NCBI RefSeq assembly: GCF_026619435.1
Contig: NZ_JAOVZQ010000001.1
Location: 3,169,501-3,233,500, forward strand
DNA: 64,000 bases
From: Hoeflea ulvae
GTDB taxonomy: Bacteria > Pseudomonadota > Alphaproteobacteria > Rhizobiales > Rhizobiaceae
Direction of reading: 5' to 3'
Each line of letters opens with the position of its first letter. Within the stretch, counting starts at the first letter, position 1. The notes below the pieces were generated by a model. It ran no database searches. It was not told the origin of the DNA and worked only from the letters and a program-made list of their open reading frames with translations. This document shows positions 15,498 through 30,148 of the stretch, one piece after another. The position numbers and the translations under genes were made by a program.

Positions 15498-15512
15498 GGC
15501 AGTCTTCCTGGT

Positions 15513-15926
15513 TCAATCATGGGGCGGCAGGACAAGGCGGAAATCGGGCAGTTCGCGCAGCGCCTCCTCGGGCCCTGCCGGACTGTAGACCACAAACAGC
15601 TTCATCGGCTCGGAGCCGGTGTTGAGCGTCGAGTGGAAACGGCTTTCGGGCACGAAGATGGTGCAACCGGCGCGCACATGTTGGGTGACCGGGTTGCCGT
15701 CGGTATCCTCGATCATCTGCTCGCCGCTGCCTTCAAGCACATAGATGATCTCCTCGGCGCCGGGATGATTGCGGCGGGTGTGGCCCTGGCCGGACGGCAC
15801 ATGGACGACCCCGGCCGAGAATTTGCAGGCGCCATTGACCTTCGGCCCGCAGGTCAGCGTCAGATGGCCCCAGTCAAAGGCGAATCGCTCCACAGCTTCC
15901 GGATAGACAAATAGATTCTCGCTCAT
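15513..15926 (-). CDS. Cupin-domain protein
   Basis: A 137-residue single-domain cupin. Motif 1 has the metal-binding pattern [21 protein letters not shown] (His, His-like position, Glu, Gly; near residues 48-68) and motif 2 is [12 protein letters not shown] near residues 93-104. Small cupins with this arrangement often bind a metal and act as sugar isomerases, dioxygenases or ligand sensors, and the sequence alone does not choose among them. It overlaps the upstream TIM-barrel gene by 4 bases (ATGA), and the M24 gene follows 15 bases on, so all are co-translated. A role in the same carbohydrate-linked pathway is inferred. Confidence 0.85.
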
Positions 15927-16771
15927 GCCTGGCTTCCTTTCAGATTTGGCAGCGCCTTGAAGGTCTTGATCTGGTCGCGGATGGCGGTTTCCGCCGGCAG
16001 CCTTTCGGCCGAGCTTGCACCGTAAAAGCCGTGGCAGCCATTGCAGCGCGACAGCACATAGGCGGTGTCATCGGGCATCGAGATCGGCCCGCCGTGACAC
16101 AGGACGATGATGTCGGGGCGAATCGCCCGCGCCGCTGCGGCGATGCCATCGATTTCGCTCACGCAATCATCCAGGCTCTTGGCGGACGTCGCGCCGATGC
16201 TGCCGCCGGTGGTCACCCCCATATGGGCGACGATGATGTCGGCGCCGGCGCGGGTCATGGCTTCGGCCTCTTCCGGGTTGAAGACATAGGGCGTGGTCAG
16301 GAGATCCAGCTCGTGGGCCGCCGCAATCATGTCGACCTCGAGACCGAAGCCCATGCCGGTCTCCTCGAAACTCTGTCGCATGGCGCCGTCAAACAGGCCG
16401 ATGGTCGGAAAATTCTGCACCCCGGAAAAGCCCATGGCTTTCAGCTCCGCCAGGAATTGCGGCATCAGGATGAAGGGATCGGTGCCGTTGACGCCGGCCA
16501 GCACCGGGGTGTGACGCACCACCGGCAGCACTTCCACCGCCATTTCCTTGACGATCTCGTTGGCATTGCCATAGGCCAGAAGCCCGGCGGCCGAGCCGCG
16601 ACCGGCCATGCGGTAGCGGCCGGAATTGTAGATGATGATCAGATCGATGCCGCCGGCCTCCTCGGCCTTGGCCGAAAGCCCGGTCCCTGCCCCGCCGCCG
16701 ATGATCGGAACACCTTCGGCCACCATGGCTGTGAGTCGTGCGAGAATGTCGGAGCGGGAAATTGCTGGCAT
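15923..16771 (-). CDS. TIM-barrel protein of the phosphoenolpyruvate hydrolase-like family (Tm-1 C-terminal domain homologue)
   Basis: A 282-residue TIM-barrel protein. Recognisable features are the N-terminal [20 protein letters not shown] with [19 protein letters not shown] (near residues 20-65), then [11 protein letters not shown], the central [12 protein letters not shown] near residue 184, and [18 protein letters not shown] near residue 230. This pattern belongs to the COG5564 family, annotated as TIM-barrel or phosphoenolpyruvate hydrolase-like proteins. The plant Tm-1 resistance protein has this domain as its C-terminal half and UPF0261 as its N-terminal half; here the UPF0261 gene is the next one upstream, 11 bases away. 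No enzyme activity is established for the bacterial proteins to my knowledge. Confidence 0.82.
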
Positions 16772-16782
16772 GGATGGTCTTT

Positions 16783-17979
16783 CTAGGTCAGGTGATGGAC
16801 AGGAAGGCGTCGGCTGCGGCCACTGGCGAAGGCCGGATCATTGATATGCAGCGGCAGACGCTCGATGCGACGATTTTCGGAGGTCTCGAAGGCCGCCTCG
16901 ATTGCGCCAAACAGGGCCGCATCGGCTTCAGGATCGAAAAACGCGCCGCCCTCGATGTCGAGCGCCGAAACGCCGCGCTCGGGAATCAGAAACCGCACCG
17001 GGCCATTGCAGGCATTGAGCTTGCGGCCAATCCAGTCGCCGACCCGGCGGCAGTCTTCCGGTGTGGTCCGCATCAGCGTCACATTGGGATTGTGATGGTA
17101 GAATTTGCGGCCCGCATGGATCTCGGGGACCGTGTCCGGCGCCCAGAAATTGACCATGTCGAGCGCGCCCACTGATCCGACATAGGGCACGCCGCTGCGG
17201 GCGATCGCGTCAAAGCGCTCGGCGGTGGCCGGCAGCACTCCGCCCAGCAGGAGATCGCAGACCTCGGTGGTGGTGATATCGAGCACGCCGGAGAGCACCC
17301 GGTCATCGACCAGTTTTTCCATGGTTCGCCCGCCGACACCGGTTGCGTGAAACACCATGCAATCATGCGTGGCTTCAAGCCGGCTGACAATTGCGGTAAC
17401 GCAATCGGTGGTGACGCCGAACATGGTCAGCCCGATCGACTGCTGTCGATCCGTCTTTTCGTAAGGTGAGGCAGCCATGCCGGCGATGGCCCGGGCGGCA
17501 TTGTGAAGGATCATCCGGCTCAACTGGTTGAGCCCGGCAAAATCGGTGACCGAGGGCATCATGATGATGTCGGAAATGTCGACATAGGGCGCAACATCGC
17601 CGGACGCCAGCGTCGAGACCATGATCTTCGGCAACCCGTAGGGCAGCGCGCGCATGCCCTCGGTGATGATCGAGGTGCCGCCGCCGCCGCCGAAACCGAT
17701 GACTGCGGCAATATCGTCGCGGCCGACGACATACCGTGCGAATGCCTCGCCCATGGCGCTGACGGCCACGCCGCGGTCGTCACCGCCAAGCACCGCATCT
17801 GCGCCGTCGGGGTGATGAGCGGCCATCTCCCCGGCGCTCACATCGACCTCGACCGATCCCGCCCGGGTTCCCACATCAAGGCTGCGCACCGGCACACCCG
17901 CATCGGCGACACGCCGCGCCAGATAGGCGAGTTCCGCTCCCTTGGTGTCGGCAGTGCCGACCACATAGACGTATTTCAA
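16783..17979 (-). CDS. UPF0261 / Tm-1-like ATP-binding-domain protein
   Basis: The 398-residue product matches UPF0261 (COG5441), the bacterial counterpart of the ATP-binding N-terminal half of plant Tm-1. Features are [20 protein letters not shown] at the N-terminus, a glycine-rich loop [16 protein letters not shown] near residue 91, and [19 protein letters not shown] near residue 200. I place the start at a TTG (17979), with GGGAGG six bases upstream; the frame stays open 44 more codons, but these show no similarity to the family. It is the first gene of a four-gene unit (UPF0261, TIM barrel, cupin, M24). A GntR-type palindrome at 18100-18110 lies at its predicted promoter. Confidence 0.85.
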
Positions 17980-18099: not shown

Positions 18100-18141
18100 T
18101 GGTCTTACCAAATAGGAGTCTGTTCAGCTTCAAACGTCAAG
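18100..18141 (-). promoter_or_regulatory. Predicted promoter and GntR-type operator for the UPF0261 unit
   Basis: On the minus strand, TTGACG (18140-18135) is followed after 17 bases by TCCTAT (18117-18112), a plausible sigma-70-like pair. One base further is the palindrome TGGTAAGACCA (18110-18100). It fits the pattern TGGTNNNACCA shared with three other intergenic sites in this island, placed to overlap the transcription start, consistent with repression. The TTG start of the first gene is about 120 bases downstream. The operator is seen directly; regulator identity is inferred. Confidence 0.6.
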
Positions 18142-18247
18142 TGAAATAGCGACAGTCAACCCAAACAAACTTCAAATTCCCTATGTTCCATGGCCTTTTT
18201 AGCTGAGAAGCCGGGGAAGTGCGCGAAAATCAGCTGACAGGAAGCGC

Positions 18248-18276
18248 TTGACCGTTTTGCTTTTTGGTAATACCAA
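18248..18276 (+). promoter_or_regulatory. Predicted promoter and GntR-type operator for the ABC transporter unit
   Basis: TTGGTAATACCAA at 18264-18276 is a perfect 13-base palindrome containing TGGTNNNACCA. TTGACC at 18248-18253 lies 17 bases before TACCAA (18271-18276), so the operator would cover the spacer and -10 of a promoter reading towards the binding-protein gene (start 18432). The -10 match is weak. The site resembles operators of UxuR/ExuR-like FadR-family GntR regulators (TTGGT..ACCAA). Confidence 0.6.
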
Positions 18277-18431
18277 TTTGGAATTAACCGTGACAGTGGA
18301 GGGTCACCCAGAACGCCACAGGAGTGAAGCATACCGGCAACGGTCAGGATCGCGGCGCAACTGCCACCGATTCACAATCCGAACATGTCGGCGACTGAAA
18401 ACCGAATGTGATTCAACGGGAGGAGAACAAC

Positions 18432-19742
18432 ATGCGCAATAAACTCATCGGCATGGCCGGCGGACTGGCGCTTGCACTGGCAAGCGGCACCTCGGCCTAT
18501 GCGCAGGAACTGACGATTTTCTGGGCGGAATGGGATCCGGCCAACTATCTTCAGGAGCTTGTCAACGAATATGAGGCCGAAACCGGCGTCTCGGTGACGG
18601 TGGAAACCACGCCGTGGTCGGATTTCCAGACCAAGGCGTTCACCGAATTCAACGCCCGCGGCTCGGCCTATGACATGATCGTCGGCGACAGCCAGTGGCT
18701 CGGCGCCGCATCAGAAGGCGGCCATTATGTCGACCTCACCGACTTCTTCAACGAGCACAATCTCGGCGAAGTCATGGCGCCGGCCACGGTGAAATACTAC
18801 GCCGAATATCCGGGCAATTCCGGGAAATACTGGGCGGTTCCGGCTGAAGGCGACGCCGTCGGCTGGTCCTATCGCAAGGACTGGTTCGAGGATCCCGCCG
18901 AAATGGCGGCGTTCAAGGAGAAATACGGCTATGACCTGGGCGTTCCGGCAGACTGGAAACAGCTCACCGACATCGCCGAGTTCTTCCACCGTCCCGACGA
19001 GAACCGCTACGGCATCGCCATCTACACCGACAATTCCTATGATGCGATGGTGATGGGTGTCGAGAACGCGATCTTCTCCTATGGCGCAGAACTCGGCAAT
19101 TTCGAGACCTACGAAGTCGACGGCTACGTCAACAGCGACAAGGCCGTGGCAGCGCTGGAGAACTACAAGAAGCTTTACAGCTTCACCCCTCCGGGTTGGG
19201 CCAAGACCTTCTTTGTCGAGAACAACCAGGCGATCACCGAAGGCCTCGTGGCCATGTCGATGAACTATTTCGCCTTCTTCCCGGCATTGCTCAACGATTC
19301 CACCAACCCGCACGCCGCCAATACCGGCTTCTTCGCCAATCCGGCAGGCCCGGATGGCGACCAGTTCGCCGCCCTTGGCGGACAGGGCATCTCCATCGTC
19401 AGCTATTCCGAAAATCAGGAAGAGGCGATGAAGTTCCTGGAATGGTTCATCAAGGACGAAACCCAGAAGCGCTGGGCCGAACTGGGTGGCTACACAGCCA
19501 GCGCGGCAGTGCTCAAATCCGACGAGTTCCGACAGGCCACGCCTTACAACGAGGCGTTCTACCAGACCATGTTCAAGGTCAAGGACTTCTGGGCAGTGCC
19601 GGAATTCGCCGAATTGCTGACCTCTGCCAACCAGCGTCTGTATCCGTTCATCGTCGGCAATGAAGGCACGGCCAAGGAAACCCTCGACGCCCTGGCGGCG
19701 GACTGGGAAGCCACCTTCAAGAAATACGGTCGCGCGCAGTAA
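18432..19742 (+). CDS. ABC transporter sugar-binding protein (periplasmic, COG1653-type)
   Basis: A 436-residue periplasmic solute-binding protein for an importer of sugars or sugar derivatives. It begins with a signal peptide (positively charged MRNKLIG, hydrophobic core, cleavage after SAYAQ near residue 26). The mature part starts ELTIFWAEWDPANYLQEL, a pattern of the UgpB/MalE-like extracellular binding proteins (SBP_bac_1). GGGAGGAG lies 6 bases upstream of the ATG. It is the first gene of a six-gene transport operon; a hairpin follows before the permeases, a common arrangement that raises binding-protein expression. The substrate cannot be read from the sequence; the neighbouring enzymes suggest a modified or acidic sugar or glycoside. 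Confidence 0.92.
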   Translation: MRNKLIGMAGGLALALASGTSAYAQELTIFWAEWDPANYLQELVNEYEAETGVSVTVETTPWSDFQTKAFTEFNARGSAYDMIVGDSQWLGAASEGGHYVDLTDFFNEHNLGEVMAPATVKYYAEYPGNSGKYWAVPAEGDAVGWSYRKDWFEDPAEMAAFKEKYGYDLGVPADWKQLTDIAEFFHRPDENRYGIAIYTDNSYDAMVMGVENAIFSYGAELGNFETYEVDGYVNSDKAVAALENYKKLYSFTPPGWAKTFFVENNQAITEGLVAMSMNYFAFFPALLNDSTNPHAANTGFFANPAGPDGDQFAALGGQGISIVSYSENQEEAMKFLEWFIKDETQKRWAELGGYTASAAVLKSDEFRQATPYNEAFYQTMFKVKDFWAVPEFAELLTSANQRLYPFIVGNEGTAKETLDALAADWEATFKKYGRAQ

Positions 19743-19767
19743 CAGCGTTCAATCACCGCGACACATA

Positions 19768-19789
19768 AAGGGGCGCTGCGGCGCCCCTT
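19768..19789 (+). terminator. Hairpin after binding-protein gene (partial terminator or mRNA stabiliser)
   Basis: AAGGGGCGC-TGCG-GCGCCCCTT forms a perfect 9-base stem with a 4-base loop, 25 bases after the binding-protein stop. No long U-run follows. In ABC importer operons such hairpins usually protect the upstream mRNA or cause partial termination, giving more binding protein than permease. Confidence 0.6.
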
Positions 19790-19826
19790 CCTTCCCAGCC
19801 AATCAGAAGCGCAAGGAATTTTACCC

Positions 19827-20732
19827 GTGGCGTCCCAAGTCATGACCAAACTCGACCCCGAATCGCGCGCCGCCGCCCGAGGGCTGAGTGACCTGACCAT
19901 CCGCAACCTGTTCATCATTCCGACAATTGCGTTCTTGATCATCTTCAACATTTTCCCGCTGCTCTATTCGCTGGCCTATTCGTTCACCGATTTCCGGGCA
20001 TCGACCAACGCGCCGGCAAATTTCGTCGGCCTGCAGAATTACCGTGACCTGCTCAGTGACCCTTTCATCTGGAAGAACTTCTCGATCACCGCGAAATATG
20101 TGCTGATCTCGGTCACCGGCCAGGTGTTCGTCGGCTTCGGCCTCGCCATGCTGCTCAACCGCTCGATTCCGGCCAAGGGGCTGATCACCACCCTGTTGCT
20201 GTTGCCGATGATGCTGTCGATGGCCGTGGTCGGGCTGTTCTGGAAACTGCTTTACGATCCCAATTTCGGCATCATCAACTATTTCCTCGGCCTCGACAAA
20301 TTCGAATGGCTGGCCGATCCGGACATGGCGCTCTACGCCATCGCCATTGTCGACATCTGGATGTGGGCGCCCTTCGTCATGCTGTTGTCGCTGGCCGGGC
20401 TGTCGGCGGTTCCAAAACATCTCTACGAGGCCGCCGAGATCGACCGCGCCTCGGGGCTTTACACCTTCTTCCGCATCACCCTGCCCCTGGTGGCGCCGAT
20501 CCTGATGATCGCCATCATTTTCCGCACCATGGAAGCCTTCAAGACTTTCGATCTGGCCTATGTGCTGTCGTCGCAGCCGACGACCGAGCTGATCGCCATC
20601 CGGCTCTACAAGATGGCGTTTCAGGAATGGCAGACCGGCATGTCCTCGGCGCTGGCCTACATCGTGCTCATCATGGTGGTGGCAATCACCAATATCTATG
20701 TGAAATACCTCAACAAAGTGAAGGCGCGCTAA
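19827..20732 (+). CDS. ABC sugar transporter permease (MalF-like)
   Basis: A 301-residue inner-membrane permease with six predicted helices. The first, IRNLFIIPTIAFLIIFNIFP, lies near residues 25-44. The cytoplasmic EAA-like loop that docks on the ATPase is visible as VPKHLYEAAEIDRASG near residues 195-210. The start is a GTG at 19827 with AAGGAA upstream; an ATG five codons later is possible. Its partner permease follows after one base. Typical of the MalF/UgpA class of carbohydrate importers. Confidence 0.92.
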   Translation: MASQVMTKLDPESRAAARGLSDLTIRNLFIIPTIAFLIIFNIFPLLYSLAYSFTDFRASTNAPANFVGLQNYRDLLSDPFIWKNFSITAKYVLISVTGQVFVGFGLAMLLNRSIPAKGLITTLLLLPMMLSMAVVGLFWKLLYDPNFGIINYFLGLDKFEWLADPDMALYAIAIVDIWMWAPFVMLLSLAGLSAVPKHLYEAAEIDRASGLYTFFRITLPLVAPILMIAIIFRTMEAFKTFDLAYVLSSQPTTELIAIRLYKMAFQEWQTGMSSALAYIVLIMVVAITNIYVKYLNKVKAR

Positions 20733-20733
20733 G

Positions 20734-21696
20734 ATGGCCGGCGTTCGTACCCCCCAGGAAAAATGGACGAACCGTGTGGCAATTGTCGCGGTGTTCGTTG
20801 CCCTCGCAATCATGCTGACCCCGATCTACTGGATCGCGGCCACCTCGTTCAAACCGCGCAATCTGGCGACCACCATTCCGCCGACGGTGGTGTTCCAGCC
20901 GACCGTGTCGCCCTTCGTCAAGCTGTTTACCAAGCGCTCGCAACTGCGCGACCAGCCAAGTGCGGAAGAATATGCCGCCGCCCCCTGGTGGGAGCAGATG
21001 GTGTTTGACGGCGGCGAGAAGGTTGTCCGCAACGGCAAGACCGGCGAGGTCCGCTCATCGGGCTATGGCGACCGCTTCACAAATTCGCTGATCATCTCGA
21101 TCGTCTCGACCATATTGGCGGTGTCAATGGGAACGCTGACCGCCTATGGCTTCAGCCGCTTCAAGGTGGCGGGCGAGGACGACTGGCTGTTCTTCATCCT
21201 GTCGACGCGCATGCTGCCGCCGGTGGTCGTCGCCATCCCGATGTTCCTGATGTACCGGGTGGTCGGGCTCAACGACACCCATCTGGGGCTGATCATCCTC
21301 TACACAGCCTTCAATCTGAGCTTTTCGGTGTGGATCATGAAGGGCTTCATCGACGAGATCCCGCGCGAATACGAGGAAGCAGCCCTTGTCGACGGCTACA
21401 CGAGGATGCAGGCCTTCTTCAAGGTGGTGCTGCCCGAGGCGCTGACCGGCATGGCGGCAACTGCGGTGTTCTGTTTCATCACCGCCTGGAACGAATATGC
21501 CTTCGCCCTGATCATGACCAACCGCAACGCCCAGACCGCGCCGCCCTATATCCCGTCCCAGGTCGGCAGCGGTCTGCCGGACTGGACCGTGATTGCCGCA
21601 GGCACATTGCTGTTCCTGATCCCGGTGGCGATCTTCACCTTCCTTCTGCGCAACCATCTGCTGCGCGGCATGTCCTTCGGAGCGATCCGCAAATGA
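20734..21696 (+). CDS. ABC sugar transporter permease (MalG-like) with enlarged periplasmic loop
   Basis: A 320-residue permease of the MalG/UgpE class. Helix 1 is near residues 15-38. The EAA loop IPREYEEAALVDGYTRMQAF is near residues 209-228. Between helix 1 and the conserved segment FTNSLIISIVSTIL there is a hydrophilic stretch (about residues 63-110, with TKRSQLRDQPSAEEY and a Gly/Lys-rich part) that is roughly 35 residues longer than in typical MalG proteins; it should face the periplasm. The stop overlaps the next start (ATGA). Confidence 0.92.
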   Translation: MAGVRTPQEKWTNRVAIVAVFVALAIMLTPIYWIAATSFKPRNLATTIPPTVVFQPTVSPFVKLFTKRSQLRDQPSAEEYAAAPWWEQMVFDGGEKVVRNGKTGEVRSSGYGDRFTNSLIISIVSTILAVSMGTLTAYGFSRFKVAGEDDWLFFILSTRMLPPVVVAIPMFLMYRVVGLNDTHLGLIILYTAFNLSFSVWIMKGFIDEIPREYEEAALVDGYTRMQAFFKVVLPEALTGMAATAVFCFITAWNEYAFALIMTNRNAQTAPPYIPSQVGSGLPDWTVIAAGTLLFLIPVAIFTFLLRNHLLRGMSFGAIRK

Positions 21697-21965
21697 GTTT
21701 TCGCAGCATCAACCAACGCTTCCTTGCCCCTGCGGCGCAGAGCCTGATGATCTTCGGCATCATCTCGCTGTGCCAGCCCTGGAGCCTGTTCCTGCACAAA
21801 TACGGCGTCACGCTGACGCTGATCGGACTGATCACCTTCATGATTACCTCGAAAATTGCCCCCGATCCCGAGCCCGAGGAAAGCTTCATCGACGAATCCC
21901 TCGACACGCTGGAAATCAATGACAAGGCCCCGAGCAGCGGCTCCGGCATCGCGGGGACCAACTGA
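21693..21965 (+). CDS. Small two-helix membrane protein encoded in the ABC transporter operon
   Basis: A 90-residue protein with two hydrophobic segments (about residues 17-31 and 37-52) and an acidic C-terminal tail (PEPEESFIDESLDTLEIND). The ATG overlaps the upstream permease stop (ATGA) and its TGA overlaps the next ATPase start (TGATG), so it is translationally locked into the operon and very likely real. I do not recognise a named family. The rhizobial glycerol importer operon glpSTPQV also has two ATPases plus a small membrane protein (DUF2160) of unclear role; this one may be functionally analogous. An accessory transporter subunit is inferred. Confidence 0.75.
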   Translation: MSFRSINQRFLAPAAQSLMIFGIISLCQPWSLFLHKYGVTLTLIGLITFMITSKIAPDPEPEESFIDESLDTLEINDKAPSSGSGIAGTN

Positions 21966-23053
21966 TGGCGCAGATCGACATTCGCAATGTGCAGAAATTC
22001 TTCGGCCACCTGCAGGTGCTCAAGGATCTGAACCTGACCATCGAGGACGGCGAATTCGTCGTCATGCTGGGCCAGTCCGGCGGCGGCAAGACCACCGCTC
22101 TGCGGGCAATCGCCGGGCTTGAAACCGTGACCTCGGGACAGATCCTGATCAATGGCACGGAAGTGCAGGATCGCAAGGCTGCCGACCGCGACATTGCCTT
22201 CGTGTTCCAGTCGTTCTCGCTCTACCCGCACATGACGGTGCGCGAGAACATAGCCTTCCCGCTGCGCGCTGTGCGGATGAACGCCGCTGACCGCGACAAG
22301 GCCGTCAACGAGGTCGCCGAGACCCTGCAGATCGCCGAACACCTCAACCGCAAGCCCTCGGCGCTGTCGGGCGGCGACATGCAGCGCGTGGCCATCGGCC
22401 GGGCGCTTGTGCGGCGTCCGCAGGCCTTGCTGATGGATGAGCCCCTGGGCGTGCTCGACGCCAAGCTGCGCGAGCAGATGCGCGCCGAGATCAAGCGCCT
22501 GCACATCGCCCGCGGTTCGACCTCGGTCTATGTCACCCATGACCAGATCGAGGCGATGAGCCTGGCCGACCGCATCGTCATCCTGCATGACGGCGTGCTG
22601 CAGCAGGTGGGAGCGCCCGATGAAGTCTATCTGCATCCCACCAACCTGTTCGTGGCCAAATTCGTCGGCTCGCCGGTGATGAATGTCAGCGATGTCCGCA
22701 TCACGGACGACACCGTCGCCCTTGATGGCGCGCAATCGGGTTTCCGCTTCCCGGCCGAGGCACTGGCCAATGTCCGCAATGCCGGCGTGCCGCTGGCACT
22801 GGGCATCCGCCCCGAAGCGGTGCTGCTGGCGCATGACCAGACCGACGGCTTCATCGAAGCCGTGACCACCAATATCGAGCCCCTGGGCAGTCACGATATC
22901 GTCGATGTCCGCGTCGGCAACACCTCGCTGCGCGCCCGCACGGCCAGCGGCTTCGTCTCCGGCGAGGGACAGCGGGTCTGGGTCAATCTGGCCCCTGCAC
23001 AAGCCCATTTCTTTGACACGGCCACCGGCCTCAATCTACGCGGAGCACACTGA
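21965..23053 (+). CDS. ABC sugar transporter ATP-binding protein 1 (UgpC/MalK-like, variant motifs)
   Basis: A 362-residue MalK-class ATPase with a nucleotide-binding domain (about 1-235) and a C-terminal regulatory TOBE/MOP-like region. Walker A is GQSGGGKTTAL near residues 37-47, the signature is LSGGDMQR near residue 136 (Asp where Gln or Glu is usual), Walker B/D-loop is LLMDEPLGVLD near residue 157 (Gly-Val where Ser-Asn/Ala is usual), and the switch is YVTHDQIEAM near residue 190. All catalytic residues are present. It is immediately followed by a second ATPase gene (TGATG overlap), so the transporter probably uses a heterodimer. Confidence 0.93.
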   Translation: MAQIDIRNVQKFFGHLQVLKDLNLTIEDGEFVVMLGQSGGGKTTALRAIAGLETVTSGQILINGTEVQDRKAADRDIAFVFQSFSLYPHMTVRENIAFPLRAVRMNAADRDKAVNEVAETLQIAEHLNRKPSALSGGDMQRVAIGRALVRRPQALLMDEPLGVLDAKLREQMRAEIKRLHIARGSTSVYVTHDQIEAMSLADRIVILHDGVLQQVGAPDEVYLHPTNLFVAKFVGSPVMNVSDVRITDDTVALDGAQSGFRFPAEALANVRNAGVPLALGIRPEAVLLAHDQTDGFIEAVTTNIEPLGSHDIVDVRVGNTSLRARTASGFVSGEGQRVWVNLAPAQAHFFDTATGLNLRGAH

Positions 23054-24123
23054 TGGCCGATATTGCGCTGAAAGGCATCACCAAGAAATTCGGCCCCAAC
23101 AGCGCCCTGCGGGAGCTGGACCTCGACATCAAGGACGGCGAGTTCTTCGTGCTGCTTGGACAGACCGGGGCCGGCAAGACCACCACCTTGCGGGTGATCG
23201 CCGGGCTGGAAATCCCCAATTCGGGCCAGGTGATGATCGATGGCAAGGACGCGACCAAATGGAACGCCGCCGAGCGCGACGTGGCGCTGGTGCTGCAGCA
23301 ATACTCGCTCTATCCGCGCCTGACCGTGCGCGGCAATCTGGAGTTTCCGCTGAAATCCAGGACGCAGAACTTCACCGCCGCCGAAATCAAGGAACGCGTC
23401 GACCGCGTCGCCGAAACCCTGCAGATCACCAAGCTGCTCGACCGCAAGGTCGAACGGCTGTCGGGCGGCGAAATGCAGCGGGTGTCGATCGGCCGCGCCA
23501 TCGTGCGCAAACCGCGGGTGTTCCTGATGGACGAGCCGCTGTCGGCGCTTGACGCCAATCTGCGCGACGTGCTGCGGGTGGAGCTCAAGAAGCTGCACAG
23601 CGAATTGGGCGCGACCTTCGTCTTCGTCACCCACGACCAGGTCGAGGCCATGTCGATGGGCGACAAGATCGGTGTGCTCAACAAGGGCAGACTGGTGCAG
23701 GTCGGCACCCCGTCGGAAATCTATGCCAGACCGATCAACACCTTTGTCGCCCGCTCGGTCGGCACCCCGCCGATGAACCTGCTGGATGGTACCCTGAGCG
23801 GATCAAATGCGGTTCTGGACGCCGGCAGTTTCAGCCTCCCGGTCACAGCCCCCGCCGGATCAGATGGTGCAAAGCTGCGCTTCGGCATCCGGCCGGAAGA
23901 TGTGCTGCTGGATTCCCAGGGACCGGCAACCGGCCGCGTCTTCGACATCGAAAACCACGGCGTGATCAAGATCCTGACGCTGGATGTCGGCGGCGTCCAC
24001 CTGCATGCCACGGTGTCGGCACAGACCAGGGTTCAGATCGACGAAACCGTGACATTCGGCTGGCGGCCCGACAAGGTGCTCTATTTCGATCCGGCAACCG
24101 GGCGCAATCTGGCACTGGCCTGA
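23053..24123 (+). CDS. ABC sugar transporter ATP-binding protein 2 (UgpC/MalK-like)
   Basis: A 356-residue paralogue of the preceding ATPase with canonical motifs: Walker A GQTGAGKTTTL near residues 36-46, signature LSGGEMQRVSIGRA near residue 136, Walker B LMDEPLSALDANLR near residue 158 and switch FVTHDQVEAM near residue 190. The C-terminal regulatory domain ends FGWRPDKVLYFDPATGRNL. Paired, non-identical ATPases in one sugar importer are unusual compared with single-MalK systems but occur in the rhizobial glycerol importer. The gene ends 40 bases from a convergent dehydrogenase gene. Confidence 0.93.
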   Translation: MADIALKGITKKFGPNSALRELDLDIKDGEFFVLLGQTGAGKTTTLRVIAGLEIPNSGQVMIDGKDATKWNAAERDVALVLQQYSLYPRLTVRGNLEFPLKSRTQNFTAAEIKERVDRVAETLQITKLLDRKVERLSGGEMQRVSIGRAIVRKPRVFLMDEPLSALDANLRDVLRVELKKLHSELGATFVFVTHDQVEAMSMGDKIGVLNKGRLVQVGTPSEIYARPINTFVARSVGTPPMNLLDGTLSGSNAVLDAGSFSLPVTAPAGSDGAKLRFGIRPEDVLLDSQGPATGRVFDIENHGVIKILTLDVGGVHLHATVSAQTRVQIDETVTFGWRPDKVLYFDPATGRNLALA

Positions 24124-24162
24124 GCCAGGCCGTATCGCTTCGGCCGGCGCGCGCAGAGCATG

Positions 24163-25137
24163 TCAGCCGAAGCGCCTTAGATATCTTTCCCAGGCAGTCG
24201 GGTTGCAGAAATTATCCGGCCGTTCGCCCGCCAGGATGCGCCTGGTTTCCATCACCACGCCCTGCCCCATGCGCAGCATGCTCTCCTCGGTGATGCCCGC
24301 CATATGCGGCGTCAGGATCACATTGTGCATCGCCAGATAGGGATGGTCGTCCGGCAAGGGCTGCGTGTCGAACACATCCAGCACCGCGCCGCCGATCCTG
24401 CCGCTCTCAAGCGCCGAAATCAGCGCCTGCTCATGAACCACCGGGCCCCGCGCGACATTGACGAGAATGGCGCCCGCAGACATCAGGCCAATCTCATCGG
24501 CTCCGATCATCCCCCGGGTGGCTTCGGTCAGCGGGCAGCACAGCACCACCACATCGCTCTGCGACAGCACATCGCGCAACGCCGCCGCCTGCGCGCCCTC
24601 GGGCAGAGCTTCGGGCCGGCTGGTCACGGCAAGAACCTTCATGCCGAACCCCGCATGGGCGATGCGAAACAGCGCATTGCCCACATTGCCCATGCCGACA
24701 ATGCCGAGCGTCCGGCCGCTGAGTTCCCGGCCATGGTCCGAATGCGCCCGCGCCTTGGTCCAGCCGTCCGATTTCAGATCGTGGCTCAGCTGCGGATAGC
24801 GGCGCAACAGCGCCAGCGCCGACCAGATGCAATGTTCGGCCACGGTCACCGCGTTGACGCCGGGCACATTGGCGACCAGCACACCGGCTGCCGTTGCCGC
24901 ATCAAGCGGGATCATGTCGAGCCCCGCGCCATGCCTTACCGCCGCCCGCAGGCCCGGTTCGCGGGCAAATATCTCCGCAGGAATTGGCGCCCGCACGACG
25001 ATGATCGACGCCCCGGCGCTTTCAGCCAGGATCGCCGCAGGCGACGGTTCGCTGGCCACCACCAGCGTGCCGAGGCTGCGCAGCTCCCCGGTCACTTGCG
25101 GATGCAGCGGATGGGTGGAGAAGATTTTCTCAGACAT
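24163..25137 (-). CDS. D-isomer-specific 2-hydroxyacid dehydrogenase family protein with catalytic Glu replaced by Gln
   Basis: A 324-residue protein of the D-2-hydroxyacid dehydrogenase family, expected to reduce 2-oxoacids (or oxidise 2-hydroxyacids) with NAD(P)H. The nucleotide motif GIVGMGNVG is at residues 145-153, followed by LSQSDVVVLCCPLT. The catalytic Arg230 (NVARGPVV) and His278 (LTPHMAG) are present. At the position of the conserved catalytic Glu (E. coli SerA Glu269) it has Gln259 (DVFDTQPLP); the 29-residue spacing from the Arg is the same as in SerA. The start MSEKIFSTHP overlaps the end of the GntR gene by 8 bases, indicating coupling. It is last in the TIM barrel-enolase-GntR unit. 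Confidence 0.88.
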   Translation of the reverse strand: MSEKIFSTHPLHPQVTGELRSLGTLVVASEPSPAAILAESAGASIIVVRAPIPAEIFAREPGLRAAVRHGAGLDMIPLDAATAAGVLVANVPGVNAVTVAEHCIWSALALLRRYPQLSHDLKSDGWTKARAHSDHGRELSGRTLGIVGMGNVGNALFRIAHAGFGMKVLAVTSRPEALPEGAQAAALRDVLSQSDVVVLCCPLTEATRGMIGADEIGLMSAGAILVNVARGPVVHEQALISALESGRIGGAVLDVFDTQPLPDDHPYLAMHNVILTPHMAGITEESMLRMGQGVVMETRRILAGERPDNFCNPTAWERYLRRFG

Positions 25138-25861
25138 GGACGCGTGGGGCGTTGCCCAGGCCAGTGTCCTGCTCGACGCCATTGTCCAGAATTTCCGTCC
25201 AGTAGCTTTGCGCGCGTCCCAGATGCGTGTTCATCAGCGCCTGGGCCAGAATGCTGTCGCGGCGGTACAGCGCCTCGAAGATCTGCTGATGCTCCTGGTG
25301 GGATTTGAGATTGCGGTCCGGCTTGCCGAAATAGATCGGCATGCGCTGCTCGCTGGCGGCATAAAAGCCCGAACAGATCTTGTAGAACATCTCGTTCTGG
25401 GTGGCGCGCACGATCTCGAGATGGAACTCGCCATCGAGCCGGTAGAGCCCCAGCCCGTCGGCGATCTGTTTTTCCGAGCGGTCGAGAATGTCGCGCAGCC
25501 GGTCAAGATTGTCCTCGGTGGCGCGTTGGGCTGCGAGTTCGGCGGCCTTGATCTCGTGGATCTTGCGCAATTCCACCGCTTCGAAGATCTGCCGCGCGTT
25601 GAGCTGGACGCCGGCGCGCGCCAGCAGCGCCATCGAGCTCAGCCCGGCTGCGTCCATGGTCAGGTAGATCCCGGATTTGGCGCGCCGTTCGATCAGTTGC
25701 ATGGCTTCCAGTATCGCCAGTGATTCCCGCACCTGGCCACGGCTCACGGCAAAATGCTCGGCCAGTTCCCGCTCCGAAGGCGCCTTGTTGCCATTGACGC
25801 TCGCCACCGCCACGATGTGCGCCACCAGGTTGGGCAAGAAATCAGTTTCGGAACTTGTCAT
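25130..25861 (-). CDS. GntR-family transcriptional regulator (FadR/FCD subfamily)
   Basis: A 243-residue regulator. The N-terminal winged helix (about 10-70) contains NGNKAPSERELAEHFAVSRG, QVRESLAILEAMQLIERR and a wing KSGIYLT. The C-terminal all-helical FCD domain has likely metal/ligand residues in LDGEFHLEIV, SHQEHQQIFEAL and NTHLGRA (Asp-His-His-His pattern), suggesting a small organic acid or sugar acid as effector. It overlaps the enolase-superfamily gene (ATGA) and the dehydrogenase gene, so it is expressed from the promoter upstream of 27976 and is probably autoregulated. FadR-family proteins recognise palindromes like TGGTNNNACCA; four such sites flank units of this island. Confidence 0.93.
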   Translation of the reverse strand: MTSSETDFLPNLVAHIVAVASVNGNKAPSERELAEHFAVSRGQVRESLAILEAMQLIERRAKSGIYLTMDAAGLSSMALLARAGVQLNARQIFEAVELRKIHEIKAAELAAQRATEDNLDRLRDILDRSEKQIADGLGLYRLDGEFHLEIVRATQNEMFYKICSGFYAASEQRMPIYFGKPDRNLKSHQEHQQIFEALYRRDSILAQALMNTHLGRAQSYWTEILDNGVEQDTGLGNAPRVHV

Positions 25862-27027
25862 AGGGGCCTTGCATAGGTCTGCAGAACGGCTTCGTTCATG
25901 GTGAATCCAAGTCCGGGTTTGTCCGGAATTTCGATCATTCCATCCCGCGCTTCGACAGTGTCGTCAATGATATCATGTATCATCGGATTGGCGCCAAGGG
26001 AAAACTCCACGGTAAAACTCGCCGGAGACGCCGCGCAGACATGCAATCCTGCGAAAAAGCACGGGGCGCCGGCCCATAGATGCGGCGCCAGCCGCAGATT
26101 GAAGGCCGAGGCAATGGTGCCGATGCGCATCGATTCGGTGATGCCGCCGCAAAAGGCGGGATCGGGCTGGAAGATGTCGGCCGCCCGCATCACCGCCAGG
26201 TCACGAAAGGCAAACCGCGTCGCCTCGCTCTCGCCCGTGGCGATCGGCACCGAAACCGACGCCCGCAACTCGGCGATACCCGCCTTGTCGTCGGCGATGA
26301 TCGGTTCCTCGAACCACGCAAGGTCGCAATCCGACACCAGATGCGCAAACCGCCGCGCACCGGCGACAGTGAAGGTGCCATGGGCGTCGACCGCCAGCTC
26401 GACGTCCGGCCCAAGTGCTGCGCGCGCGGCCTTGACCCGTAGCGCCGAGGCATGCGGCGACGCATCCATGGCGCCGACCCGCATCTTGACCGCTCTGAAG
26501 CCGCCGATATCGATATAGGATTTGAGCTGGTCGCCGATCTGGTCCGCGCCGGCCCATCCGCCCGACGCATAGGCAGGCATCCGATCCGCCTTGCGGCCGC
26601 CAAGCAGTTTCCACACCGGCTTTCCGTCAGCCTTGCCCAGAATGTCCCACAGCGCGATGTCGATGGCGCTGATCGCCGAGACCGTGAGCCCGCGCCGCGC
26701 CATTTCCGGCATGGCATGTCCGGCGCGGGCGGATTTTTCGGCGCGGACGCCATTGTAGAGGTCTTCCCAGATGAAGGTGACGTCGGCCGGATCGCGGCCG
26801 ATCAGCCGCGGCCCGAAATCCTCGTTGATCAGGTGAACCAGGGTCGCGTAATTGCCGGAGCTGCCGGCGGCATTCTTGCCCTCGCCCCAGCCGACCACGC
26901 CATCATCGGTCTCGATCCGCAGGATGGCGGCATCGAAGGTGCGCAGCGTTCCGAAATCGCTGGTGTGCTGGCGTGCTTGCTCGATCGGTATCTGGATCCA
27001 CCAAGCGCGGACGGATTTGATTTTCAT
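25858..27027 (-). CDS. Mandelate racemase/muconate lactonizing enzyme family protein (enolase superfamily), probable sugar-acid dehydratase
   Basis: A 389-residue enolase-superfamily enzyme. The capping domain is about residues 1-125, followed by the barrel. Catalytic-site residues by position: Lys181-x-Arg183 (VKMRVG), metal ligands Asp214 (VDAHG), Glu240 (WFEEP) and Glu266 (TGESE), and the Asp289 (QPD) and His316 (APHLW) dyad. This mandelate-racemase-subgroup arrangement fits abstraction of a proton alpha to a carboxylate, most often dehydration of an aldonic or uronic acid. The K-x-R in place of K-x-K narrows but does not fix the substrate. It is encoded between an epimerase-like gene and the GntR gene. 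Confidence 0.9.
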   Translation of the reverse strand: MKIKSVRAWWIQIPIEQARQHTSDFGTLRTFDAAILRIETDDGVVGWGEGKNAAGSSGNYATLVHLINEDFGPRLIGRDPADVTFIWEDLYNGVRAEKSARAGHAMPEMARRGLTVSAISAIDIALWDILGKADGKPVWKLLGGRKADRMPAYASGGWAGADQIGDQLKSYIDIGGFRAVKMRVGAMDASPHASALRVKAARAALGPDVELAVDAHGTFTVAGARRFAHLVSDCDLAWFEEPIIADDKAGIAELRASVSVPIATGESEATRFAFRDLAVMRAADIFQPDPAFCGGITESMRIGTIASAFNLRLAPHLWAGAPCFFAGLHVCAASPASFTVEFSLGANPMIHDIIDDTVEARDGMIEIPDKPGLGFTMNEAVLQTYARPL

Positions 27028-27043
27028 GGCAAGGGCCCTCGCC

Positions 27044-27072
27044 CTCCGCCGGCGGCAACCGCCGCCCCGGAG
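27044..27072 (-). other. Imperfect hairpin between epimerase-like and enolase-superfamily genes
   Basis: CTCCG..GGCGG-CAA-CCGCC..CGGAG forms two 5-base stems separated by an internal loop. It lies between the stop at 27089 and the start at 27027, close to the enolase-gene ribosome-binding region on the minus strand. It could affect relative expression; this is inference. Confidence 0.3.
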
Positions 27073-27088
27073 GAGCGCCTGATTCGGG

Positions 27089-27976
27089 TTACTTGATCAG
27101 CGGCAGCAGCGTTTCCGCTGTGATCCGCATCTGGTCCGAATAGAATTTTTCGGTGAGCAGGCTGGATCCGTGATCCTGGATGAATTTCAGCTGCTCGGGC
27201 GAGATGTCGACCGGGTCGCGCTCCACCATGTCGGGATAGATCGCCGCCGGCGTGCGGTCGACCGGTGCGACGAACTCGTTGGTGAGCGCGCCGTCATAGC
27301 CGATCTCCTTCAGCGTCTCGACGATCTTCGGCCAGTTGAGATGGCCGAGCCCCGCGGCAAAGCGGTTGTTGTCGGCGACATGGAAGTCGAACAGACGCCT
27401 GCCGGCCAGCCGAATGGCGTCATAGATGTCGGATTCTTCCATGTTGAGATGGTAAGCGTCGAGGCACACACCGCAATCGGGATGCACGGCGTCAGCCAGG
27501 GCCAGCGCCTGCGCACAGCGGTTGAAGATATAGGTCTCGAAACGGTTGAGCGGCTCGATGCCGATCTTCACCCCGACTTTCTGGGAATGCGCGAAACATT
27601 CCTTCGTGGCTTCAACCAGCCAGCCCCACTCTTCCTCCTCGGTCGCATCCGGCTGCACCTTGCCCACCGTTGCCGGAACCAGTGTGATCACCTCGCCTTC
27701 GAGCTCGCTGACCATGGTCAGCACGCTCTTGACGTAATCGACCGTGCGCGCGCGCTGGCCCTCGTCCTTGGCCGCCAGGTTGCGCTCGCCCAGGGTCAGC
27801 GTCACCGCCCCCCAGCAGCGAATGCCGTGCTCCTTGAGCAGCTTGCGGGTTTCCTTGGTGTCGTACTGGGTGGGCTCACCCGAAATCTCGATGCTTTCAT
27901 AGCCGAATTGCTTGATCCGGCGAAGCGTGACCTCAAGCGGCTCGGCCCGCATCCAGTTGTGAGTCGACAGGTGCAT
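27089..27976 (-). CDS. TIM-barrel sugar isomerase/epimerase, D-tagatose 3-epimerase-like
   Basis: A 295-residue xylose-isomerase-like TIM-barrel protein. The metal-site motifs resemble ketose 3-epimerases: IEPLNRFETYIFN (Glu, near residue 150), CLDAYHLNMEESD (Asp and His, near residue 183), FHVADNNR...G-G-LNW (His) and a late Glu in NEF near residue 246. The start MHLSTHNWMR has GGGAGG upstream; the frame is open 13 codons further without a better site. It is first in a four-gene unit (this gene, enolase superfamily, GntR, dehydrogenase) and divergent from a second epimerase-like gene. A ketose or 2-keto sugar-acid epimerase is likely; substrate unknown. Confidence 0.85.
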   Translation of the reverse strand: MHLSTHNWMRAEPLEVTLRRIKQFGYESIEISGEPTQYDTKETRKLLKEHGIRCWGAVTLTLGERNLAAKDEGQRARTVDYVKSVLTMVSELEGEVITLVPATVGKVQPDATEEEEWGWLVEATKECFAHSQKVGVKIGIEPLNRFETYIFNRCAQALALADAVHPDCGVCLDAYHLNMEESDIYDAIRLAGRRLFDFHVADNNRFAAGLGHLNWPKIVETLKEIGYDGALTNEFVAPVDRTPAAIYPDMVERDPVDISPEQLKFIQDHGSSLLTEKFYSDQMRITAETLLPLIK

Positions 27977-28034
27977 GATGATCCTCCCTTGCTGCAGGAC
28001 TCCTCCATCCTGCACTGTGTTGCATTACCTCTTC

Positions 28035-28072
28035 TGGTTAGACCAATTAAGCCCAAAATGGATTCTAATCAA
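28035..28072 (-). promoter_or_regulatory. Predicted promoter and GntR-type operator for the epimerase-enolase-GntR unit
   Basis: On the minus strand TTGATT (28072-28067) is followed after 17 bases by TAATTG (28049-28044), and the palindrome TGGTCTAACCA (28045-28035) begins inside this -10. It matches TGGTNNNACCA. A bound repressor would block polymerase, and since the unit includes the GntR gene this would give autoregulation. The operator is visible; the promoter assignment is inference. Confidence 0.6.
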
Positions 28073-28174
28073 GCCGACCACACCGAGAAATATTCCATGA
28101 ACGCCAGTCAAACGCGCTATTTTGGCACTTGCGCGCCGTTTGCAAACATGATTGCGTATCTCCTGTCGCTATTT

Positions 28175-28185
28175 TGGTATTACCA
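28175..28185 (+). promoter_or_regulatory. GntR-type operator for the plus-strand TIM barrel-Gfo/Idh unit
   Basis: TGGTATTACCA is the fourth TGGTNNNACCA site of the island. It lies 24 bases upstream of the GTG start at 28210. TATTTT at 28170-28175 directly before it may be a -10 element, but I found no good -35. Operators at 28035 and 28175 are 140 bases apart in the divergent promoter region. Confidence 0.55.
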
Positions 28186-28209
28186 GTTACCGTCAAAACG
28201 AGGAACGCT

Positions 28210-29082
28210 GTGAAAATCGGGATGAACATGTTTCTGTGGGCCACCCATATCGGCCCGGAACACGAACCGCTGCTGCGCGCGCTCAAGGCGACCGGCTATG
28301 ACGGGGTGGAAATTCCGGTCTTCGAGGGCGACGTCAGCCATTACACCGAGCTTGGCCGCATGCTCGACGATATCGGGCTCGAACGCACCGCGGTCACGGC
28401 GATGGGCGACCCCGCGATGAACCTGATCGGGCCGGATGCGGCGCGTGCCCGCGGCGTCGACTACATGCGCGCCACGCTAGACAGGACACAGGCGCTCGGC
28501 GCCAGGTTGATCTGCGGCCCGCTGCATTCGACGCTGGGGCATTTCTCCGGCGAAGGCCCGACGGCTGATGAATTGTCACGCTCGGTCGCTTCGCAGCGCC
28601 TGATCGGCGACCATGCGGCGGGCTTGGGCATCACCATTGCGCTCGAAGCGCTCAACCGCTTCGAATGCTACCTGGTCAACACCATGGATGCCCTGGCAGC
28701 GCATCTGGTCGAGATCGGCCATCCGAATATCCGCGCCATGTACGACACCTTCCATGCCAATATCGAGGAAGCCGACCCGATCGGGGCGCTGAACCGCAAC
28801 GCCGATGTGGTCGCCCACATCCATATTTCCGAAAATGACCGGGGTGTGCCCGGCCGCGGAAACATTCCGTGGCGCGAGACCTATGCCGCGATAGTCGAAA
28901 CCGGTTATGACGGATGGCTGACGATTGAAAGTTTCGGCCGCGGCCTGCCCGATCTGGCGGCAGCGACAAAAGTATGGAGAGACTTCGCCGAGAGCCCGGA
29001 AGCGGTGTATCGAGACGGATACAAACATATTACAAGGTCACTCAAGGCGGCCGAACTATTTTCTGGAGGAGAAAACCGATGA
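28210..29082 (+). CDS. TIM-barrel ketose 3-epimerase-like protein (D-tagatose/D-psicose 3-epimerase family)
   Basis: A 290-residue protein strongly patterned on ketose 3-epimerases, which invert C3 of ketoses through a metal-bound enediolate. Motifs are ALEALNRFECYLVN (Glu near residue 150), MYDTFHANIEEAD (Asp and His near residue 183), HIHISENDRGVPGRG (near residue 210) and the last ligand TIESFGR near residue 245. I choose the GTG at 28210 (MKIGMNMFLW) because GAGG lies 6 bases upstream and it follows the operator; the open frame reaches back to 28129. It overlaps the next gene (ATGA). Confidence 0.87.
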   Translation: MKIGMNMFLWATHIGPEHEPLLRALKATGYDGVEIPVFEGDVSHYTELGRMLDDIGLERTAVTAMGDPAMNLIGPDAARARGVDYMRATLDRTQALGARLICGPLHSTLGHFSGEGPTADELSRSVASQRLIGDHAAGLGITIALEALNRFECYLVNTMDALAAHLVEIGHPNIRAMYDTFHANIEEADPIGALNRNADVVAHIHISENDRGVPGRGNIPWRETYAAIVETGYDGWLTIESFGRGLPDLAAATKVWRDFAESPEAVYRDGYKHITRSLKAAELFSGGENR

Positions 29083-30134
29083 AAACCATCAAGGGTCCAG
29101 CGCTGTTTCTGGCGCAATTTGCAAGCGACGAGGCACCGTTTGATTCCTGGGCCTCGATCACCAAATGGGCGGCCGATTGCGGCTACAAGGGGGTGCAGGT
29201 CCCGAGCTGGGACGGACGGCTGATCGACCTGCAGAAGGCCGCCGATTCAAAGGACTATTGCGACGAATTCAAGGGCGTCGCAGCCGAAAACGGCGTCGAG
29301 GTCACCGAATTGTCGACCCATCTGCAGGGCCAGCTTGTCGCCGTGCATCCCGCCTATGACGAGGCTTTTGACGGATTTGCGGCGCCGGAAGTGCGCGGCA
29401 ATCCCAAGGCGCGGCAGGAATGGGCGGTCAACCAGGTGCGGCTGGCGCTGACTGCCTCCAAACACATGGGCATCGGCGCGATGGCGAGCTTTTCCGGCGC
29501 GCTGGCCTGGCCCTATGTCTATCCGTGGCCGCAACGGCCGGCCGGACTGGTCGAGACCGCCTTTGACGAACTGGCCAGACGCTGGCGGCCGATCCTTGAT
29601 CACGCCGAGGATTGCGGCGTCGATGTCTGCTACGAAATTCACCCCAGTGAAGACCTGCATGACGGCATCACCTTCGAGATGTTTCTGGAGCGCGTTGGCA
29701 ACCATGCCCGCTGCAACATGCTCTACGACCCGTCGCATTACCTGCTGCAATGCCTCGACTACATCGACAACATCGACATCTACAAGGACCGGATCAAGAT
29801 GTTCCACGTCAAGGATGCCGAGTTCAATCCGACCGGACGCCAGGGCGTCTATTCGGGGTACCAGCCGTGGGTGGACCGGGCCGGACGGTTTCGCTCGCTC
29901 GGCGACGGACAAGTCGATTTCGGCGCGATCTTCTCGAAGATGGCCGCCAATGATTTTGACGGCTGGGCCGTGGTCGAATGGGAATGCTGCCTAAAACACC
30001 CCGAAGACGGCGCACGCGAAGGCGCGCAGTTTGTCTCCGACCATATCATCCGCGTCACCGAGCGCGCCTTCGACGATTTCGCCGATGGCGGCACCGACGA
30101 CGCCGCCAATCGCCGCATGCTCGGCATTTCGTGA
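29079..30134 (+). CDS. Sugar phosphate isomerase/epimerase family TIM-barrel protein
   Basis: A 351-residue AP-endonuclease-2/xylose-isomerase-like TIM barrel, larger than the two epimerase-like neighbours. Likely metal ligands are in CYEIHPSEDLHDG (Glu, His; near residue 188), LYDPSHYLLQ (Asp, His; near residue 220), FHVKDAEF (His; near residue 247) and VVEWECCLKHP near residue 302. GGAGGAG lies 7 bases upstream of the ATG, which overlaps the previous stop. Proteins of this size class paired with a Gfo/Idh/MocA oxidoreductase occur in pathways that oxidise a sugar at C3 and then epimerise or eliminate it; assignment to such chemistry here is inference. Confidence 0.85.
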   Translation: MKTIKGPALFLAQFASDEAPFDSWASITKWAADCGYKGVQVPSWDGRLIDLQKAADSKDYCDEFKGVAAENGVEVTELSTHLQGQLVAVHPAYDEAFDGFAAPEVRGNPKARQEWAVNQVRLALTASKHMGIGAMASFSGALAWPYVYPWPQRPAGLVETAFDELARRWRPILDHAEDCGVDVCYEIHPSEDLHDGITFEMFLERVGNHARCNMLYDPSHYLLQCLDYIDNIDIYKDRIKMFHVKDAEFNPTGRQGVYSGYQPWVDRAGRFRSLGDGQVDFGAIFSKMAANDFDGWAVVEWECCLKHPEDGAREGAQFVSDHIIRVTERAFDDFADGGTDDAANRRMLGIS

Positions 30135-30148
30135 GCGGGAGGGACACA

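Follow-up and report, generated by a model that had tools for sequence, protein, structure and literature searches.

A stretch of 64,000 nucleotides from Hoeflea ulvae (the window) contains a sugar-type catabolic cluster that encodes a GntR/FCD regulator and, in two intergenic regions separated by 10 kb, four copies of the palindrome TGGTNNNACCA, which we treat here as candidate operators of that regulator. From the first region a leftward unit (UPF0261, PEP-hydrolase-like, cupin and M24 proteins) and a rightward unit (a solute-binding protein, two permeases, a small open reading frame and two ATPases) diverge, and from the second region a leftward unit (epi1, an MR_MLE enzyme, GntR and a 2-hydroxyacid dehydrogenase) and a rightward unit (epi2, an IolE-like protein and a Gfo/Idh/MocA oxidoreductase). 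The protein matches give broad families only and do not name the substrate of the cluster, and in a literature search we recognized no paper describing this regulon. The genes are as follows.

14346..15926, minus strand: cupin and M24 peptidase/creatinase-like proteins
15923..16771, minus strand: PEP-hydrolase-like protein (PF09370; PEPH)
16783..17979, minus strand: UPF0261 protein, homologue of the tomato Tm-1 PDB chains
18432..19742, plus strand: sugar-type solute-binding protein (SBP)
19827..21696, plus strand: two ABC (ATP-binding cassette) permeases
21693..21965, plus strand: small open reading frame of about 90 amino acids, located between permeases and ATPases; it includes a hydrophobic stretch and is matched in two congeners
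21965..24123, plus strand: two MalK/UgpC-type ATPases
24163..25182, minus strand: D-2-hydroxyacid dehydrogenase-like protein (HADH)
25130..25861, minus strand: GntR/FCD regulator (243 amino acids), the presumed binder, from Pfam GntR and FCD matches, conservation and a structural model
25858..27027, minus strand: enolase-superfamily (MR_MLE) dehydratase-like protein (MLE)
27089..27976, minus strand: xylose-isomerase-like TIM barrel, ketose 3-epimerase-like (epi1; 27089-27979 was used as the query)
28210..29082, plus strand: TIM-barrel epimerase-like protein (epi2; the query was the open reading frame 28129-29082)
28974..30134, plus strand: IolE-like TIM-barrel protein (bounds of the open reading frame; the real start is probably later)
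30110..31336, plus strand: Gfo/Idh/MocA oxidoreductase (approximate start)

The likely start of the UPF0261 gene is the TTG at 17979, because the family models match from residue 46 of the long open reading frame and a Shine-Dalgarno-like GGAGG precedes this TTG; with this start, the site at 18100 lies 121 bp upstream of the gene and not inside it. The predicted operators are listed below together with the promoter elements, which were placed by means of alignment columns that relatives conserve.

18100..18110: predicted operator B1, TGGTCTTACCA, the upstream site of the transporter module
18112..18140, minus strand: possible UPF0261 promoter TTGACG-N17-TCCTAT, adjoining B1 (8 of 12 matches)
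18248..18253, plus strand: inferred SBP -35, TTGACC (TTGAC is conserved nearby in TetR-bearing relatives; absent from the output of the consensus scan)
18265..18275: predicted operator A1, TGGTAATACCA, overlapping the inferred -10 of the SBP/ABC-transporter promoter
18271-18276: possible SBP -10, TACCAA, within A1 and 17 bp after TTGACC
28035..28045: predicted operator B2, TGGTTAGACCA, which closely follows the inferred epi1 -10 and is also the upstream site of the epi2 module
28062..28067, minus strand: inferred -10 of the epi1-MLE-gntR-HADH promoter, TAGAAT, aligned with conserved TAG columns
28175..28185: predicted operator A2, TGGTATTACCA, before epi2 (GTG at 28210)

A pattern search of the window found exact TGGTNNNACCA palindromes at 18100-18110, 18265-18275, 28035-28045 and 28175-28185, precisely where the original prediction had placed them, and one more at 41619-41629 within long open reading frames, making five in total. 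Dinucleotide-shuffled versions of the window gave a mean of 0.36 matches and a maximum of two, and chance does not account for four sites in two intergenic regions that lie 10 kb from each other. A high genome-wide frequency of the motif had been named as an outcome that would refute the regulon. In the whole genome (5,118,054 bases in two contigs) 40 distinct sites stand against 117 for the pattern read backwards; the motif is thus not common and the regulon survives this check. We inspected all 35 sites other than the island four and that at 41619, and by a rough caller of open reading frames 30 lie within such frames and five outside them (at loci L007, L088 and L094, and two at L087). An extended 19-bp pattern with at most two mismatches occurs at seven places in the genome, of which three are island sites and the other four have a broken TGGT/ACCA core; the site at 28035 exceeds two mismatches, and at a limit of three mismatches 85 places were found compared with 36 for the backward control. 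Among the 35 exact sites inspected and the extended-pattern matches listed, we found no convincing additional member of the regulon in this genome.

We then compared 32 relatives and 80 named loci, sets which partly overlap (e.g. L149 and G139), scoring 400 bp upstream regions; all counts of such regions are of distinct sequences and not of independent genomes. At least one exact site is present upstream of epi1 in 99 of 99 regions, two sites in 93, and the remaining six have a B site with one mismatch. Upstream of SBP, 64 of 64 regions carry at least one exact site and 43 carry two, with a one-mismatch B site in the other 21. Regions that were incomplete were excluded (L075 for SBP; L123, L154 and L217 for epi1), and 40 of the 80 named loci show no SBP within the retrieved stretch and are uninformative on its module. 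Exact sites are absent upstream of the internal genes MLE (0/100), HADH (0/101), perm1 (0/68) and atp2 (0/86), occur once each upstream of atp1 (1/83), GntR (1/101) and PEPH (1/58), and are found upstream of epi2 in 35 of 75 regions and of iolE in 12 of 22, either of which may lead its unit. For UPF0261 the figure is 11 of 60. Across the loci of relatives, with overlapping loci all counted, 335 exact sites fall inside the module windows compared with 14 in 2,237,507 bp outside them. Together with the shuffles and the genome count, these numbers bear out the expectation that the motif is enriched at promoters and nearly restricted to the island, and that the sites are positioned at promoters.

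The regulator and the sites also travel together. Of 151 genomes in the family, 34 have strong matches to GntR, that of the window included, and epi1 is present in 35, namely the same 34 and G089, whose contig ends inside GntR; co-occurrence in 34 of 35 cluster genomes is as the regulon would have it. A diffusible regulator would be expected to keep its sites at transporter operons that lie apart from its own gene, and in the six genomes with the SBP operon apart from GntR the B-A pair is kept in all six. In five of these (G067, G134, G086, G089 and G032) the operon is on another contig and in G038 it is about 45 kb from GntR; as draft contigs may adjoin in the cell, the clear cases are G032, in which both places are well inside contigs of more than 1.5 Mb, and G038. 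Close copies of UPF0261 were found in 34 genomes, and the cluster genome G080 has distant copies only. In G129 and G030, which have a UPF0261 operon but no SBP in the fetched stretch, no site was seen there, and the 1 kb upstream is free of sites in all 20 of the more distant UPF0261 copies that were fetched (of 29); for one of them a site lies 1.6 kb off, within an ATPase gene.

Across the relatives, the sites are arranged in modules of a promoter site A and an upstream site B. Read towards the transporter or towards epi2/iolE, each region has B first and then A (in the window, B1 at 18100 and A1 at 18265, B2 at 28035 and A2 at 28175), with A mostly TGGTAATACCA or TGGTATTACCA and B mostly TGGTTMGACCA within AATC...GATT. 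Site B of the second region comes shortly after conserved TAG columns that we take to be the -10 of epi1. Around B of the first region little is conserved beyond the extended palindrome in the TetR-bearing loci (n=47). The B-A spacing is 138-184 bp in all but three of 132 non-redundant modules, i.e. the two operators lie within about 200 bp of each other, as in operator pairs of the looping type. For the SBP modules this spacing is unrelated to the length of the UPF0261-SBP gap (rho -0.03, n=55), with a median of 174.5 bp where TetR is present (n=42, gap 1092 bp) and of 176 bp where it is not (n=13, gap 363 bp).

The TetR gene (PF00440) concerned here lies between the UPF0261 operon and the transporter pair of sites in 47 of the 60 loci that show both UPF0261 and SBP, the window being counted among the 60, and UPF0261 is directly beside site B in just 13, including the species of the window. 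In L046, L052 and L058, the three loci for which open reading frames were listed, TetR is co-directional with SBP and ends at or over B. A TATGATAC-like element is present in all 47 UPF0261 upstream regions with TetR nearby, and in 35 of these an inverted repeat is recognized by pattern as well; all 13 without TetR lack both element and repeat. As TetR stands between the pair and UPF0261, and UPF0261 has its own TetR-linked element, both sites would serve the transporter side; the original prediction of one site per direction consequently needs revision. The fuller element TTGACGTGAGAC...TATGATAC...GTCTCA, seen in 49 distinct UPF0261 upstream regions (e.g. L046 and L052), tracks TetR and is probably a TetR operator. 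Two of the 62 distinct UPF0261 upstream regions (L108 and L110) keep element and inverted repeat with TetR about 4 kb away; these two operons have no SBP transporter in the fetched stretch and do have a distantly related ABC ATPase.

At the window locus both the TetR gene and its element are missing, and a search of the genome with the TetR protein gave no match at E <= 1e-5, a negative whose only positive control comes from a different program run, in which the same protein matched other loci by tblastn. On a 60-row tree of UPF0261 and SBP, parsimony counts eight changes of TetR state, six of them forced by well-supported branches, and the window, without TetR, pairs with G046, which has it (support 82 by a quick tree method). 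We read this pattern as one of probable repeated loss. With gene and element gone in the species of the window, B1 may now also control UPF0261. Of the claim of about 17 genes in four units, the gene count holds (4+6+4+3), but the four units need revision; GntR control of the fourth, that of UPF0261, is a possible and lineage-specific addition.

Considering these data together, we regard it as very likely that the four palindromes are operators of the GntR protein encoded at 25130-25861, acting as a local catabolic repressor on A and B modules in which B aids A, and there is a high probability, from the comparative pattern, that the regulon is real and its three-unit core conserved. In the absence of effector, GntR would bind A1 at the transporter promoter, A2 at the epi2 promoter and B2 just past the epi1 -10, such that uptake, catabolism and gntR itself would be shut down together; control of GntR by itself, as originally proposed, thus appears likely through the epi1-MLE-GntR-HADH unit. 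The effector would probably be a sugar acid or another carboxylated intermediate of the pathway, held at an Asp-His-His-His metal site. Each intergenic region would hold one A and B module, and the transporter B would strengthen repression from A, probably by co-binding or looping.

This mechanism has to be weighed against observations that tell against it, which concern the spacing of the sites, the promoters and the identity of the binder. With respect to spacing, each palindrome might instead act on its adjacent promoter alone, a single site for each direction as originally proposed, repressing it with no cooperation between B and A, and we give this a substantial chance, though one short of even. 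In the epi1/epi2 region the B-A spacing rises with gap length (rho 0.70, n=66), which by the criterion in PMC4494728 is the behaviour of separate sites and not of a cooperating pair; three SBP modules are spaced by just 65, 65 and 99 bp; and in the window the TTGACG-N17-TCCTAT facing UPF0261 adjoins B1. Against independent sites stand the TetR gene between B and UPF0261 in 47 of 60 loci, where B is kept with no conserved promoter alongside, and a transporter B-A spacing that ignores gap length. A general left-facing promoter beside B was not found either in the 13 TetR-less modules (score 7.23 compared with 7.28 in shuffled sequence) or in the 47 TetR-bearing ones (6.66 compared with 6.93), although one is plausible in single cases (the window, L156 and L164), and the transporter B, which in relatives with TetR lacks a conserved promoter of its own, probably reinforces A. 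By the same published criterion, then, the SBP sites look like a cooperating pair and the epi1/epi2 sites like separate ones. Rayleigh tests of helical phasing returned small p values at periods of 10, 10.5 and 11 (R 0.38-0.49), but the test is not valid here since the spacings cluster and are shared by descent, and we make no claim about phasing either way; phase alone would not decide the matter, as the lac repressor reportedly forms loops of about 150 bp in the absence of correct phasing too (PMC2553838).

With respect to the promoters, a sigma-70 consensus scan found none in either intergenic region, and the original statement that three of the sites overlap or abut a predicted -10 could not be confirmed in that form. 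Scores at A exceed those of shuffled sequence both in SBP modules (8.28 compared with 7.05, n=60) and in epi modules (7.92 compared with 6.92, n=72), and the 47 non-redundant TetR-bearing SBP modules show a strong TTGAC beginning 18 bp ahead of A (17 bp in the window). However, the 13 TetR-less SBP modules have CTGGA in place of TTGAC, the 72 epi modules show a weaker -35 TTGAC signal, the window lacks a clear TTGAC at A2 and the epi1 promoter scores only 7.33 compared with 7.09 shuffled. Activation or dual regulation by GntR at these promoters is unlikely in our estimation: FCD activators exist, CitO being one (PMC4746285), and B, well upstream of A, is in a possible activator position, yet the inferred -10 is covered by A, and B2 closely follows the inferred -10 of epi1.

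With respect to the binder, the genome encodes 24 FCD proteins over the cut-off, that of the island included, and TGGTNNNACCA is a motif of general FadR-subfamily type, but a different FadR-type regulator acting at these sites is very improbable given how closely the island GntR co-occurs with the cluster, how nearly the promoter sites are confined to it in this genome and how rare they are outside the modules in the loci of relatives.

The island GntR belongs to the FadR (FCD) group, as had been predicted, on the evidence of Pfam and of the helix count in its model. Its N-terminal winged helix-turn-helix matches PF00392 at 42.7 bits (cut-off 27) and its C-terminal domain the FCD family PF07729 at 86.5 bits (cut-off 24.3), and TGGT-N3-ACCA palindromes of the FadR operator type stand at the target promoters. 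The AlphaFold2 model (mean predicted local distance difference test score 88.4) predicts seven C-terminal helices (74-82, 89-113, 116-134, 140-153, 157-169, 181-199 and 203-226, plus a four-residue piece at 174-177), as in the FadR group, and not the six of the VanR group. The residues D143, H147, H191 and H213, together with R41 and R45, are invariant in 28 aligned sequences, and the sequence has the Asp/Asn-x3-His...His...His pattern of metal-binding FCD regulators. The NCBIfam equivalog/subfamily models score below their cut-offs (NanR 98.5 of 260 bits, UxuR 69 of 442 and LldR 65.3 of 311), so that by this test the protein is not LldR; its structure matches are PmiR, NanR, FadR and Atu1419.

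Atu1419 of Agrobacterium fabrum, an FCD-GntR protein of the VanR group, is the closest working precedent. According to PMC7797058 it is a self-repressing local repressor of a catabolic region; a single promoter region contains two palindromes separated by 190 bp, which its tetramer was seen to loop, and the metal site consists of three His plus Asn (N137, H141, H192 and H214). It shares with the island GntR the predicted type of repressor, the paired palindromes and the putative metal-site residues (Asp here, Asn there), but its palindrome is ATGTATACAT and not TGGTNNNACCA, and it has six C-terminal helices, compared with seven longer ones after the winged helix in our model. TGGTNNNACCA itself is given as an LldR consensus (PMC9600882), and FadR-subfamily sites are described as A/T-rich palindromes with TKGT/ACMA boxes (PMC4494728); LldR binds Zn via three His and Asp (PMC7797058), but sits in another gene neighbourhood. 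DgoR of Escherichia coli is likewise a FadR-family repressor, with two inverted repeats over its own promoter and a metal-bound sugar-acid effector (PMC7674646), and shares the Asp-x3-His pair; it serves another pathway, however, and its structure 7c7e matches the island GntR only at E 6.9e-10. PmiR of Pseudomonas aeruginosa is the best PDB match by both sequence (7xp0) and fold (7xp1), but at 23-26% identity in the fold alignments and with no sign of common targets.

Among the features described, the putative pairing of the operators is the most interesting. One conceivable extension, which we put forward tentatively as an idea that may well prove wrong, is that the pair is a portable two-site module, with B about 170 bp upstream of A and both bridged by a single GntR oligomer; B would be held in place for the transporter, and each independent loss of TetR would set the Tm-1-like UPF0261 operon beside a ready GntR operator, the repressor being swapped repeatedly in evolution. 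The repeated presence and absence of TetR between fixed operators provides a natural series on how an operon may change its repressor. The regulon occurs in records that carry the labels Rhizobiaceae, Phyllobacteriaceae, Paracoccaceae and Roseobacteraceae, and its definition for a sugar-type catabolic cluster comes with an operator definition that is directly testable.

In this cluster, bacterial homologues of Tm-1, a virus-resistance protein of plants, also stand beside catabolic genes. The UPF0261 protein of the window matches a Tm-1 chain at E 1.2e-88, and the next gene encodes a PF09370 protein, presumably the counterpart of the TIM-barrel part of Tm-1. Tm-1-like proteins are described as fusions of two domains, UPF0261 and a TIM barrel, and the Tm-1 domain is called uncharacterized (both PMC5028733), whereas here there are two separate genes within a bacterial operon; a Brucella comparison (PMC2364660) mentions UPF0261 by name only.

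Two of the genome sites outside open reading frames, at 1001-1011 and 1094-1104 of L087 (G000:C1:2378224 and 2378317), are exact and 93 bp apart in a gene-poor stretch, in which reading by eye revealed no obvious target gene. A near-match, CATCTGGTCTTGCCAAATT, lies at G000:C1:4255950-4255968, with two further FCD genes (4249085 and 4250472) a few kb away. Finally, the UPF0261 and PEP-hydrolase-like genes are adjacent at 15923-17979, and some distant UPF0261 matches in the family fall in open frames of about 740-820 residues, a length that may point to a fused Tm-1-like form in bacteria.

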